A stretch of 64,000 bases of DNA, from the NCBI RefSeq assembly GCF_005047635.1, contig NZ_SUKC01000001.1, positions 1-64,000 of the forward strand, in the 5' to 3' direction. Below the pieces are notes generated by a model. It ran no database searches, had not been told where the DNA came from, and worked only from the letters and a program-made list of their open reading frames with translations. The stretch comes from Arthrobacter sp. CAU 1506. GTDB lineage: Bacteria; Actinomycetota; Actinomycetes; Actinomycetales; Micrococcaceae. A program made the position numbers and the translations under genes. Below, piece by piece: positions 20,312 through 47,187 of the stretch (the first letter of the stretch is position 1; every line of letters begins with the position of its first letter).

Positions 20312-21421
20312 TCACCAACCGCCACGCGTCGGGGTGTGCCCCTTTCGCGCATCCTCCGGCATGGCCATCTCGGCCCGCAGGCCCAAGAGGCGGATCGGCC
20401 GGCCCGCTTCCAGTGCAGCCGCGAGGTCCAAGGCCCGCGCGAGGATGTCGTTTCGGTCGAAGGTCTCGGGAATCTTCCGCGCGTGGGTCTTGGTGATGAA
20501 GGGCGCATACCGGACCTTAAGGGTGAGCCCGATCACGGGCCGCCCCTCGGCCACGACGTCCTCAAGGACCCGCGCCGTCAGCTCCCGCACGGCGCCTTCA
20601 ACTTGGGCGGGCTCGGTCAGGTCGCGTTGAAAGGTGGTCTCCCGGCTGTGCCCGCGGGCAACCCACGGAGTGTCGTCCACCACGCTGGTGCCATCCCCAC
20701 GCCCGAGCTCCGCGTACCAAGGGCCCATCCTGGGGCCGAACTCGGGCACCAAGTCTTGAGGGTCGGTCGCGGCGAGCTCTGCTACCGTATTGATGCCGAG
20801 CTTGGCTAGCCGGCCTGACACCTTGGTCCCGACGCCCCACAGGTCCTTGGTAGGCCGAGCGCCCATGACATCGAGCCAATTCCCGGCCGTGAGACGGAAA
20901 ACGCCGGCCGGCTTACCGAAACCGGTGGCGACCTTGGCTCGGACCAGGGTGTCACCGATGCCCACACTGCAATGCAGCTGGGTCCGTTCCAACACAGCGG
21001 CCTGCACCTGCCGGGCATAGGCTTCCGGATTCTCGGTCTCCGTCCCCACAAAAGCTTCATCCCACCCCAGCACCTGGACGGTGGCGCCGGGCTGGGCGCG
21101 CAGGGCAGCCATCACGGTTTCAGATACTGCGAGGTAAGTCTCTTGATCGACGGGCAGAATCACCGCGTCCGGCACTTTCCGTGCGGCTATGCGCAAGGGC
21201 ATTCCGGAACCCACACCGAACGCCCGGGCCTCGTAGGATGCGGTCGATACCACTGCTCGTTCCGTAGGGTCGCCCCGACCGCCGACAATGATCGGCTTGC
21301 CCTTGAGCTCCGGGCGCCGGAGCACTTCAACGGCCGCGATGAACTGGTCGAGATCGACATGCAGTACCCACGGGATTCCGCTCACGCCACTAGTCTGCCC
21401 TATACCTCCGGCGCCCGACAT
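20312..21421 (-). CDS. dinB: DNA polymerase IV (Y-family)
   Basis: Error-prone translesion polymerase. The palm catalytic residues are visible as LHVDLDQFIAAVEV (D23) and GWDEAFVG (D121, E122); the usual SIDEA is replaced by GWDEA, as I recall for one actinobacterial DinB branch. Helix-hairpin-helix and little-finger regions follow. The C terminus (TPTRGGW) has no obvious beta-clamp motif. A GTG 36 nt inside (21385) is an alternative start. A LexA-box-like site lies about 72 bp upstream, shared with the divergent radical SAM gene. Confidence 0.92.
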   Translation of the reverse strand: MSGAGGIGQTSGVSGIPWVLHVDLDQFIAAVEVLRRPELKGKPIIVGGRGDPTERAVVSTASYEARAFGVGSGMPLRIAARKVPDAVILPVDQETYLAVSETVMAALRAQPGATVQVLGWDEAFVGTETENPEAYARQVQAAVLERTQLHCSVGIGDTLVRAKVATGFGKPAGVFRLTAGNWLDVMGARPTKDLWGVGTKVSGRLAKLGINTVAELAATDPQDLVPEFGPRMGPWYAELGRGDGTSVVDDTPWVARGHSRETTFQRDLTEPAQVEGAVRELTARVLEDVVAEGRPVIGLTLKVRYAPFITKTHARKIPETFDRNDILARALDLAAALEAGRPIRLLGLRAEMAMPEDARKGHTPTRGGW

Positions 21422-21492
21422 TGGGTCCCCACCCAGCTTTTCAACCCGCGCGGCAGAGCGGCCAACACCTCACCCCAGAGCTGGGCAGCAAT

Positions 21493-21508
21493 TCGAAGAT
21501 GTGTTCTA
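21493..21508. promoter_or_regulatory. LexA (SOS) box between dinB and the radical SAM gene
   Basis: TCGAAGATGTGTTCTA matches the actinobacterial SOS consensus TCGAACN4GTTCGA at 10 of the 12 defined positions. It ends 9 nt before the ATG of the radical SAM gene and overlaps a plausible -10 (TCTAAT, 21505-21510). That arrangement would suit a leaderless transcript repressed by LexA. It may also control dinB. LexA, the LysM gene and recA in this window carry similar sites. Confidence 0.6.
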
Positions 21509-21516
21509 ATAAATGA

Positions 21517-23625
21517 ATGCGCTGGGATGGACAGTTAGTCACCGCCGAGTCTCCCGCTGCGTTGCCCGGGCTGGCCAAAACGAGCAACCTTGTACGCAGT
21601 GTGCAGACGCCGGAGTTCGCGGGAATCACCTTTCACGAAGTGCTGGCGAAATCCGCCCTCAGCCGGGTGCCCAGCCAGTCTGCGATGCCTTTCGAGTGGA
21701 CCATCAACCCGTACCGGGGCTGCTCGCATGCCTGCACATACTGCCTGCATCCAGACACGCTGATCCTGATGGCGGACGGCAGGCAAAAGGCGCTCCGCAA
21801 GGTAATGGTTGGCGATGAGGTCATGGGGACAGAAGTCCGTGGCAGCTATCGTCGCTATACGAGGACGCATGTGAGGGCTAAATGGCCCACTCGCAAGCAC
21901 GCCTATCGGCTCACACTGGGAGATGGTACTCAAATTGTGGCCAGCGGCGACCACCGCTTCCTTAGCGATCGCGGCTGGAAATTTGTACAAGGCACGATGT
22001 GGGGAGCAGAACAACGGCCCTATCTGACGCCAAATAACAAGCTCATGGGTTTCGGCCTCCACGGACTGGCGCAAGAGGCCTATGGGCCAGAGCACGACGA
22101 AGCCTACCGCCGTGGATATCTCACCGGAATGATTCGTGGCGATGCGATGTTATTGCGGCGCACCTATACACGGGCCAGCGGCACGCCGAACAACGTCAGC
22201 ATGTTCCGTTTAGCGCTCACGGATTCACAGGCATTGGAGCGGACGCGAGGATATCTGGCGAAGGCGGGGATATCGACCACCCAGCGCCCCTTCGGAACGA
22301 AAACCGATACCCGGAAACAAATGACGGCGATTCATACCTCCCGTGCGGCCCACTATGATGCCATCCAAGGCCTCATTGAATGGCCCGTTAACCCCAGCGA
22401 CACATGGAGCGCCGGCTTTCTGGCTGGAGTCTTCGATGCCGAGGGCAGTTGCTCCCGAGGAGTGCTGCGGATCAGCAACTCCAATCAGGAGATACTCAGG
22501 CACATCGAAACCGCTATGTCGGCTCTCGGAATCACCTATGTTAGGGAACGAGCCCGCGCAAACGGCGTCGCCAATATCCGCGTAGTCGGAGGACTTCCGA
22601 TGCGTTCACGCCTTTTTGGCGCCACAGCTCCAGCTATCTCCCGCAAGTTGAAGATCGAGGGGCTGGCGGTGAAATCGAAAGCCGACCTCCGAATCGTCTT
22701 GATCGAAGATCTCCGCCAAGAACAAGAAATGTTCGACATCACAACGGGAACGGGCGACTTCATTGCCAATGGAGTCGTCAGCCACAACTGCTTCGCTCGC
22801 AAGACCCACAGCTATCTTGGCCTGGACACCGGCTTGGACTTCGACAGCCAGCTGGTAGTGAAAATCAATGCCGGCGAGGTGCTGCGCCGGGAGCTCGCCA
22901 AACCATCATGGAAGCACGAACAGGTGGCCATGGGCACGAACACGGATCCTTACCAGCGGGCAGAAGGCCGGTACAAGCTCATGCCCGAGATCATCAGGGC
23001 CCTGGCCGATTCCGGAACGCCGTTTTCGATCCTGACCAAGGGGACCTTGCTGGCCCGCGATCTGCCCCTGTTGCATGATGTGGCCAAGGACGTCGAGGTC
23101 GGCATGGGCATCTCGCTGGCCATGACCGACGCCGGCTTGGCGCACCGGGTGGAGCCGGGAACACCGACGCCGCGGGCGCGGCTGGACCTGATCGCCAAGC
23201 TCAGCGACGCCGGCCTGGAGTGTTCGGTGATGGCGATGCCGATCCTGCCCTGGCTGACGGATTCCGAAGAGGCGCTCGACGACCTGTGTGCCTCGGTAGC
23301 TGCCGCCGGTGCCACCAGCATGACGGCTGGCGCGCTGCACCTTCGTCCCGGTGCGCGAGAGTGGTACATGCAGTGGCTGGCCAAGGAATATCCGCAGCTG
23401 GTCGACAGCTACCGCCGCCTCTACAACGGCGGAACCTACGCCTCCAAGGATTACCGGCGCTGGCTGGCCGCACGGGTGGGCGCGGCCAAACGCCGGCACG
23501 GTTTGCAGAGCGGAGCCCGGCTGCGCGACATCAACACGCAGCAGCCAGACACTGCTCGCGGACGGCCGATGGGAGGACCGAAGGCCGCCGCACTGCCTGA
23601 GGTTGGGCAGGCGACGCTGTTCTGA
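21517..23625 (+). CDS. Rv2578c-family radical SAM protein interrupted by an intein
   Basis: The host protein resembles the spore photoproduct lyase-like radical SAM family represented by Mycobacterium tuberculosis Rv2578c. It starts like that protein (MRW, then LVRSVQTPEFAGITFHEVL) and has the [4Fe-4S] CX3CX2C motif. Residues C69 and C73 lie in the N-extein, and the third cysteine is the first C-extein residue. After splicing the junction reads CSHACTY-CFARKTHSYL. The precursor is 702 aa, the spliced protein about 353 aa. The tail QATLF also matches Rv2578c. No ribosome binding site is evident. The reaction catalysed is unknown; the location beside dinB and the SOS box suggest a DNA-damage role (inference). 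Confidence 0.92.
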   Translation: MRWDGQLVTAESPAALPGLAKTSNLVRSVQTPEFAGITFHEVLAKSALSRVPSQSAMPFEWTINPYRGCSHACTYCLHPDTLILMADGRQKALRKVMVGDEVMGTEVRGSYRRYTRTHVRAKWPTRKHAYRLTLGDGTQIVASGDHRFLSDRGWKFVQGTMWGAEQRPYLTPNNKLMGFGLHGLAQEAYGPEHDEAYRRGYLTGMIRGDAMLLRRTYTRASGTPNNVSMFRLALTDSQALERTRGYLAKAGISTTQRPFGTKTDTRKQMTAIHTSRAAHYDAIQGLIEWPVNPSDTWSAGFLAGVFDAEGSCSRGVLRISNSNQEILRHIETAMSALGITYVRERARANGVANIRVVGGLPMRSRLFGATAPAISRKLKIEGLAVKSKADLRIVLIEDLRQEQEMFDITTGTGDFIANGVVSHNCFARKTHSYLGLDTGLDFDSQLVVKINAGEVLRRELAKPSWKHEQVAMGTNTDPYQRAEGRYKLMPEIIRALADSGTPFSILTKGTLLARDLPLLHDVAKDVEVGMGISLAMTDAGLAHRVEPGTPTPRARLDLIAKLSDAGLECSVMAMPILPWLTDSEEALDDLCASVAAAGATSMTAGALHLRPGAREWYMQWLAKEYPQLVDSYRRLYNGGTYASKDYRRWLAARVGAAKRRHGLQSGARLRDINTQQPDTARGRPMGGPKAAALPEVGQATLF
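21742..22788 (+). other. intein with LAGLIDADG homing endonuclease
   Basis: In-frame protein intron of 349 aa (host residues 76-424). It begins with Cys1 (CLHPDTLILMADG, GDEV), has a block B-like segment ASGDHRFLS, two LAGLIDADG endonuclease helices (GYLTGMIRGDAML and GFLAGVFDAEGS), and a C-terminal splicing block FDITTGTGDFIANGVVSHN followed by Cys+1. All splice-junction residues (Cys1, terminal His-Asn, Cys+1) are present, so splicing should work. Base composition looks less GC-rich than the flanking exteins, consistent with transfer. It sits immediately before the third iron-sulfur cysteine codon. Confidence 0.95.
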
Positions 23626-35246: not shown

Positions 35247-35262
35247 TCGAACGTATCTTCGA
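35247..35262. promoter_or_regulatory. LexA box upstream of the LysM gene
   Basis: TCGAACGTATCTTCGA differs from the TCGAACN4GTTCGA consensus at one defined position. It lies 61 bp upstream of the LysM gene start and 52 bp from a second LexA box nearer lexA. Confidence 0.75.
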
Positions 35263-35313
35263 ATGCGTCTTCTACAGTTCTAGCACTGGTGATCGACTAT
35301 TGTCGAGACTCAG

Positions 35314-35354
35314 TCGAACAAATGTTTGAAATTCCTCACCGCCTCGCCTAGCGT
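35314..35354 (+). promoter_or_regulatory. LexA box and promoter of lexA
   Basis: TCGAACAAATGTTTGA (35314-35329) matches the SOS consensus except for a T in place of C in the right half. It overlaps a good -35, TTGAAA (35326-35331), followed after 17 nt by TAGCGT (35349-35354). LexA bound here would block polymerase, the expected autoregulation. Confidence 0.75.
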
Positions 35355-47171: not shown

Positions 47172-47187
47172 CCGAACACACTTTCGA
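47172..47187. promoter_or_regulatory. LexA box upstream of recA
   Basis: On the recA strand the site reads TCGAAAGTGTGTTCGG, matching TCGAACN4GTTCGA at 10 of 12 positions. The right half GTTCGG is the same as in the mycobacterial recA box. It is ~146 bp from the recA start and 33 bp from the end of the DUF3046 gene. Confidence 0.6.

Follow-up and report, generated by a model that had tools for sequence, protein, structure and literature searches.

The locus examined here raises the question of what an intein is doing inside the iron-sulfur cluster motif of a radical SAM gene that appears to belong to the SOS response, and whether it is a mobile element lodged in such a gene or a device that makes the enzyme conditional on the redox state of the cell. 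The gene lies in a 64,000-nucleotide stretch of Arthrobacter sp. CAU 1506 (contig NZ_SUKC01000001.1), referred to below as the window. An earlier note, made from the letters of this stretch, had favored the second answer. Its claims were followed up by profile searches, comparison with intein-free and intein-bearing relatives, tree building and structure prediction, and the features involved are collected in Table 1.

Table 1. Features of the radical SAM locus, with positions in the window
Feature	Position	Strand	Basis or remark
DinB-type DNA polymerase IV, divergent neighbor	20312..21421	-	NF002883, 536.8 bits (cut-off 330)
Putative promoter: -35 TGGGCA (21482-21487), 17-bp spacer, -10 TCTAAT (21505-21510)	21482..21510	+	predicted from sequence
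LexA (SOS) box TCGAAGATGTGTTCTA	21493..21508	+	10/12 consensus positions; 8 bp between its end and ATG
Gene for the intein-bearing precursor of an Rv2578c-family radical SAM protein	21517..23625	+	702 aa; profile scores
N-extein	21517..21741	+	aa 1-75; comparison with intein-free homologues
CX3CX2C as read in the precursor: Cys-7 (aa 69), Cys-3 (aa 73), intein Cys1 (aa 76)	21721..21744	+	alignment
Intein, Hint fold and LAGLIDADG endonuclease	21742..22788	+	aa 76-424, 349 aa; Cys1 ... His-Asn
LAGLIDADG motif 1, LTGMIRGDA	22120..22146	+	alignments; acid retained, final Gly replaced by Ala
LAGLIDADG motif 2, LAGVFDAEG	22420..22446	+	PF14528, 32.2 bits (cut-off 22.5), and alignments; acid retained
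C-extein	22789..23625	+	first residue Cys+1, which is the third cluster cysteine once the protein is mature

An intein before the third cluster cysteine

The assignment of the gene to the Rv2578c family, proposed in the earlier note, is borne out by scores above both curated cut-offs: the precursor scores 516.4 bits against NF038135 (Rv2578c family radical SAM protein, cut-off 430) and 817.6 bits against NF038136 (intein-containing Rv2578c family radical SAM protein, cut-off 700). The intein-bearing form is thus already known, being catalogued as an NCBIfam class of its own. The radical SAM model PF04055 gives 39.7 bits (cut-off 29.5), and 28.4 bits when the genome is searched in six frames. 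The ATG at 21517 is backed by a conserved MRW N-terminus and by a near-constant distance to the LexA box among relatives.

The anatomy of the precursor can be read directly. At the insertion site, intein-free homologues run ...CSHACVYCFARKTH... or ...CLHQCTYCFARKTH..., giving an uninterrupted C-x3-C-x2-C-FAR, and because they do so the 349-aa LAGLIDADG intein must sit exactly before the third motif cysteine, in agreement with the earlier note. The intein begins with Cys1 and ends with His-Asn, followed by Cys+1, and C1, H71 (the block B His), H348 and N349 are invariant across nine aligned inteins. The residues expected of a class 1-type intein (Cys1, the His of block B, a penultimate His, a terminal Asn and Cys+1) are therefore all present, and the precursor is presumably spliced. 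The general intein models score below their curated cut-offs (PF14890 27.2/35.8, PF05203 20.7/32.1, TIGR01445 22.7/24.5). The intein is poorer in G+C than the C-extein (0.578 vs 0.663).

A larger set of intein genes was drawn from two sources. Searching the family contributed 15, and a genome scan with the intein, from which 80 loci were retained, contributed 78; at least three of these 80 duplicate genomes of the family search. The remaining two (L062, L110) did not parse and were inspected separately. Cysteines occupy positions -7, -3, 1 and +1 in all 93 parsed genes, which confirms the cysteine nucleophile noted at both junctions, and the insertion site is identical in all 93, although neither this count nor the box counts below are to be read as independent events, because 78 of the 93 were collected with the intein query and the loci are akin to each other. 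In the mature form, after removal of the intein, the cysteine positions of CX3CX2C are filled in 42/42 alignment rows.

One conclusion drawn earlier from this arrangement, that cluster binding has to wait for the end of splicing, is not supported in that form. The precursor retains a CX3CX2C in which the intein Cys1 supplies the third cysteine; as Cys1 fills that place until Cys+1 takes over, an inability of the precursor to hold a cluster does not follow. On this reading of the sequence, what splicing would restore is the downstream sequence and the barrel.

A conserved LexA box at the start codon

A LexA-box-like site had also been noted 9 bp from the start codon; the site stands, while the measured spacing is 8 bp. 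Comparison lends strong support to LexA control. In 39/39 Micrococcaceae loci examined, a LexA-like box is found 7-9 bp upstream of the start and agrees with the 12-position consensus at 9-12 places. These loci are the window, nine relatives from its genus, 14 from Nesterenkonia and 15 from elsewhere in the Micrococcaceae, the last being the best-scoring intein-free loci of the family (217/295 genomes matched) and not a random draw. When the 117 parsed loci are considered, less five that have no recognizable start, the best site (at least 8/12) lies 7-11 bp from the start in 108/112. There are four exceptions: L124 reaches 7/12, the strong boxes of L125 and L126 lie farther out (22 bp and 18 bp, respectively), and in L092 two sites tie and a 10/12 box is also present at 8 bp. 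Sites of at least 10/12 occur in 95/112 loci as against 6/5600 single-base shuffles of the same stretches, and sites of at least 8/12 in 111/112 as against 645/5600, the loci again being related to each other and the counts not independent.

A symmetrized LexA matrix was built from the boxes of 38 relatives, excluding that of the window. By this matrix the site in the window scores 22.3 bits and ranks second in 64 kb, and 30 random 64-kb sequences generated by a first-order Markov model contain no site that scores as well. Of the five best sites, the remaining four are at 35247, 35259 and 35314, near lexA, and at 47172, about 146 bp upstream of the recA ORF. A matrix derived from radical SAM promoters alone thus finds three boxes near lexA (35247-35329) and one before recA (47172-47187). 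The conserved box is the observed part, and LexA would be expected to bind at 21493..21508. The predicted -10 element overlaps the box, and transcription probably starts at about 21517, giving a leaderless mRNA. By comparison across loci, then, there is a strong case for counting the Rv2578c-type enzyme of these bacteria among their SOS functions.

Older regulon papers reportedly place M. tuberculosis Rv2578c under LexA control. The name Rv2578c has no occurrence in PMC8151990, and LexA control of this gene was not found in our literature search. A parallel is the S. venezuelae radical SAM gene vnz_31145, given in the available text of PMC9380542 as a LexA ChIP target that is up 19.97-fold under mitomycin C. 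Its printed SOS box was found in 77/295 genomes of the genus taken to be Streptomyces. In 1/20 loci examined (L183) the box immediately precedes an Rv2578c-type gene, and there the first base of the box lies 38 bp before the start as read here, versus -61 in the available part of PMC9380542. These comparisons support vnz_31145 as a probable member of the Rv2578c family.

Distribution, origin and surroundings of the intein

The sporadic distribution of the intein is directly seen. Within the genus, the gene is present in 10/10 genomes and the intein only in that of the window, the site being empty in 9/9 relatives. Within the family, 217/295 genomes match the gene and 15/295 exceed the NF038136 cut-off, namely that of the window and 14 assigned to Nesterenkonia by identical proteins; eight further Nesterenkonia genomes match below the cut-off, and in the four with listed positions the match skips the intein. 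Across the phylum, 14/396 genomes, the window's included, exceed the intein cut-off, and the true number is at least 14, since 13 more matches below it span intein positions. With only 15/295 family genomes over the cut-off, the intein has the behavior of a mobile element and not that of a regulatory device fixed in the gene. The best 80 of 305 relatives in the genome scan are 79 Actinomycetota and one Salinivenus MAG (L121), which among these 80 is closest to the window at 60-61%.

The histories of intein and host gene appear to differ, since the two trees group the window differently: at an SH-aLRT of 89 (not starred) the intein groups with five inteins from Microbacteriaceae, and at 99 (starred) the extein groups with 15 Micrococcaceae that lack an intein. 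Separate histories are what homing predicts. At the DNA level, the five best of 110 matches to the N-extein are Microbacteriaceae intein carriers, with another such carrier and an intein-free Micrococcaceae tied in sixth place; the best matches to the C-extein are Micrococcaceae. A mosaic N-extein, possibly part of a co-conversion tract (21517-22788), is suggested, the tree tests being not significant (the two placements of the N-extein obtain p-AU values of 0.645 and 0.655, and the alternative placement of the C-extein 0.241). The 24-nt box region is nearest to that of a genus relative, which speaks against an imported promoter. Nor is there support for entry of the gene as a whole into the genus by transfer, since in the five relatives whose flanks were read it occupies the orthologous position. 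A phage source was also considered: viral contigs scanned with the window intein gave none, and a scan with the intein alignment gave three weak relatives (31-37%) whose flanks, judged by eye, are not this host protein.

The order pheT-pheS-...-rSAM-nudix-MFS recurs in all five intein-free relatives for which wide flanks were read, and a Nesterenkonia region (L160) has none of the pheT-pheS, nudix or MFS neighbors. DinB was rejected as a conserved partner: among the loci compared it adjoins the gene only in the window, where it separates the radical SAM gene from the conserved flank with pheS, and it is absent from that place in the five intein-free relatives. Copies 89-93% identical lie at other places in 7/9 of the remaining genomes of the genus, two further genera have such copies as well, and a polymerase elsewhere in the genome of the window (L132) is 29.5% alike to this DinB. 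In the nine loci of these copies, the best LexA-matrix score is below 5 bits in eight and 11.1 in one (L139). The dinB gene is a local arrival with no conserved partnership. According to the available text of PMC12924846, a Streptomyces member of the gene family is the attachment site for the integrase of phage Samy, and two unrelated kinds of mobile element, intein and phage, thus aim at Rv2578c-type genes.

Predicted splicing, its possible gating and known relatives

Taken together, we consider it likely that a LexA-repressed radical SAM gene was invaded by a homing intein that is spliced out after induction. The gene would very probably serve repair or tolerance of DNA damage, and a mobile, class-1-type LAGLIDADG intein would have invaded the codon of the third cluster cysteine. 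Upon DNA damage, LexA would leave the box overlapping the -10 element, and a probably leaderless mRNA would be made; the Hint domain of the precursor would fold, and Cys1, the block B His, the His-Asn end and Cys+1 would excise the intein. Cys+1 would then complete CX3CX2C, allowing the mature enzyme to load its [4Fe-4S] cluster and act in repair or tolerance. The intein would spread by homing, and would be kept because the host cannot vary the site and any inexact deletion would destroy the enzyme. The most likely reading is an ordinary homing intein within an SOS gene, in which any putative effect of redox state or cluster on splicing would be secondary.

Against this stands the proposal that splicing is a redox switch, in which a disulfide between Cys-3 and Cys1 in oxidizing cells halts the first splicing step. 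Both cysteines are present in 93/93 parsed intein genes, and 13 of these inteins contain no cysteine other than Cys1, which leaves the motif cysteines as the near partners. A precedent is provided by the MoaA intein of Pyrococcus abyssi, for which the available texts describe a native disulfide with Cys-3 (PMC3922620) that prevents the first step (PMC10663303). Redox gating in the window is thereby plausible by analogy. However, the conservation of Cys-3 and Cys1 is no sign of regulation, because the pair is dictated by the host cluster motif and would be expected without any, and most gene-bearing family genomes fall below the intein cut-off. We regard the switch as doubtful, and equally so its consequence that the SOS-induced enzyme appears only in cells reducing enough for an oxygen-labile cluster.

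A broader form of the proposal, which we hold to be unlikely, is a two-key enzyme whose SOS-made precursor is held by a Cys1 disulfide or by a metal or Fe-S center until the cell is both reducing and iron-sulfur replete, the cluster motif being the sensor. Its metal-binding half on its own, in which Cys-7, Cys-3 and Cys1 of the precursor bind a cluster, iron or zinc and so occupy the splicing nucleophile, making splicing dependent on metal or Fe-S state, is in both respects more improbable still. The precursor does preserve the CX3CX2C spacing, but a radical SAM cluster additionally requires the barrel and SAM, and the motif loop is predicted at low confidence (pLDDT below 50 at 68-72), making the geometry of Cys-7, Cys-3 and Cys1 in the model unusable. 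Inhibition of mycobacterial DnaB splicing by zinc, described in the available part of PMC7360933, offers a precedent.

The integrity of the allele bears on a further alternative. The intein is predicted to be a LAGLIDADG homing endonuclease from its two acid-bearing motifs (D209 and E309 both retained), its PF14528 score above the cut-off and an I-DmoI-like predicted fold (TMt up to 0.78), although the endonuclease may be weakened, given the Ala at the end of motif 1. This residue is Ala in the window and in L110 (Micromonospora yasonensis), versus Gly in the five full-length inteins among the 14 of Nesterenkonia. The other nine (L024-L032) are mini-inteins of 158-188 aa that have lost the endonuclease and kept the splice residues, with deletion ends that vary by lineage (e.g. 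L024 vs L031 vs L032). In L062 (Cryobacterium algoritolerans) Cys1 is replaced by Ser and the frame is broken, and L110 has a frame break close to the intein start, through decay or sequencing error in both cases. That the window allele is itself decaying, with splicing or endonuclease already dead and the gene silent, is very improbable: L062 and L110 suggest that such decay occurs and motif 1 has lost its last Gly, but the open frame of 702 codons, the splice residues, the cluster residues and the LexA box are all intact, and the Ala, shared with L110, is not peculiar to the window.

For the predicted structure of the window precursor (pLDDT 83.4, pTM 0.57), the best fold matches are the intein and homing endonuclease structures PI-SceI, the TliVMA intein, PI-PfuI and I-DmoI. 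A sequence search at E 0.01 found no solved structure for the extein; its 13 matches are 12 intein or endonuclease chains and one replicative DNA helicase aligning to the intein part. The intein-free homologue L034 (pLDDT 79.2, pTM 0.78, cluster loop below 50) best matches spore photoproduct lyase (SPL) in the PDB, at ranks 1-5 and 10 (E 3.1e-6 to 2.5e-5), with lipoyl synthase at ranks 6-9. L034 resembles SPL to a moderate degree, with a TM of about 0.5, an rmsd of 5.6-6.6 and an identity of 13-15%.

The significance of the locus lies in a widespread natural case of an intein splicing nucleophile at the cluster-ligand position of an apparently SOS-induced enzyme. Because of this position, and because intein-free, mini-intein and full-length alleles exist within one bacterial family, the question of whether inteins act as sensors for their hosts becomes directly testable. 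Our literature search, in which few subscription journals were covered, found no paper joining an intein with Rv2578c. With the catalogued NF038136 class the window protein shows no difference at the family level; it is a member from a genus otherwise intein-free (10 genomes).

SPL (SplB) has the CX3CX2C and the fold in common with the Rv2578c family. Its Cys140, which follows the cluster motif, is the catalytic hydrogen donor, and the SPL entries among the fold matches carry C140 mutants in their titles; this residue, however, has no conserved counterpart here. Outside the motif no extein cysteine is invariant (the best column, about 144 residues past the motif, has 33/42), and SPL chemistry is therefore not implied. 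The available text of PMC12924846 likewise leaves the SplB label of a Streptomyces member uncertain. Like the gene in the window, S. venezuelae vnz_31145 is a LexA-linked radical SAM gene, but the L183 locus lacks an intein and differs in the distance from box to start. The P. abyssi intein resides in MoaA, itself a radical SAM enzyme, and has the same Cys-3/Cys1 neighbors as the window intein, but its host belongs to another family and organism, and it is for MoaA that the disulfide is demonstrated. The DnaB and SufB inteins of mycobacteria, which the available parts of PMC6195587 and PMC8891592 connect with redox or Fe-S state, are Cys-based like that of the window but reside in different host proteins, and the trap pair of DnaBi1, Cys48-Cys118, lies inside the intein (PMC6195587, available part).
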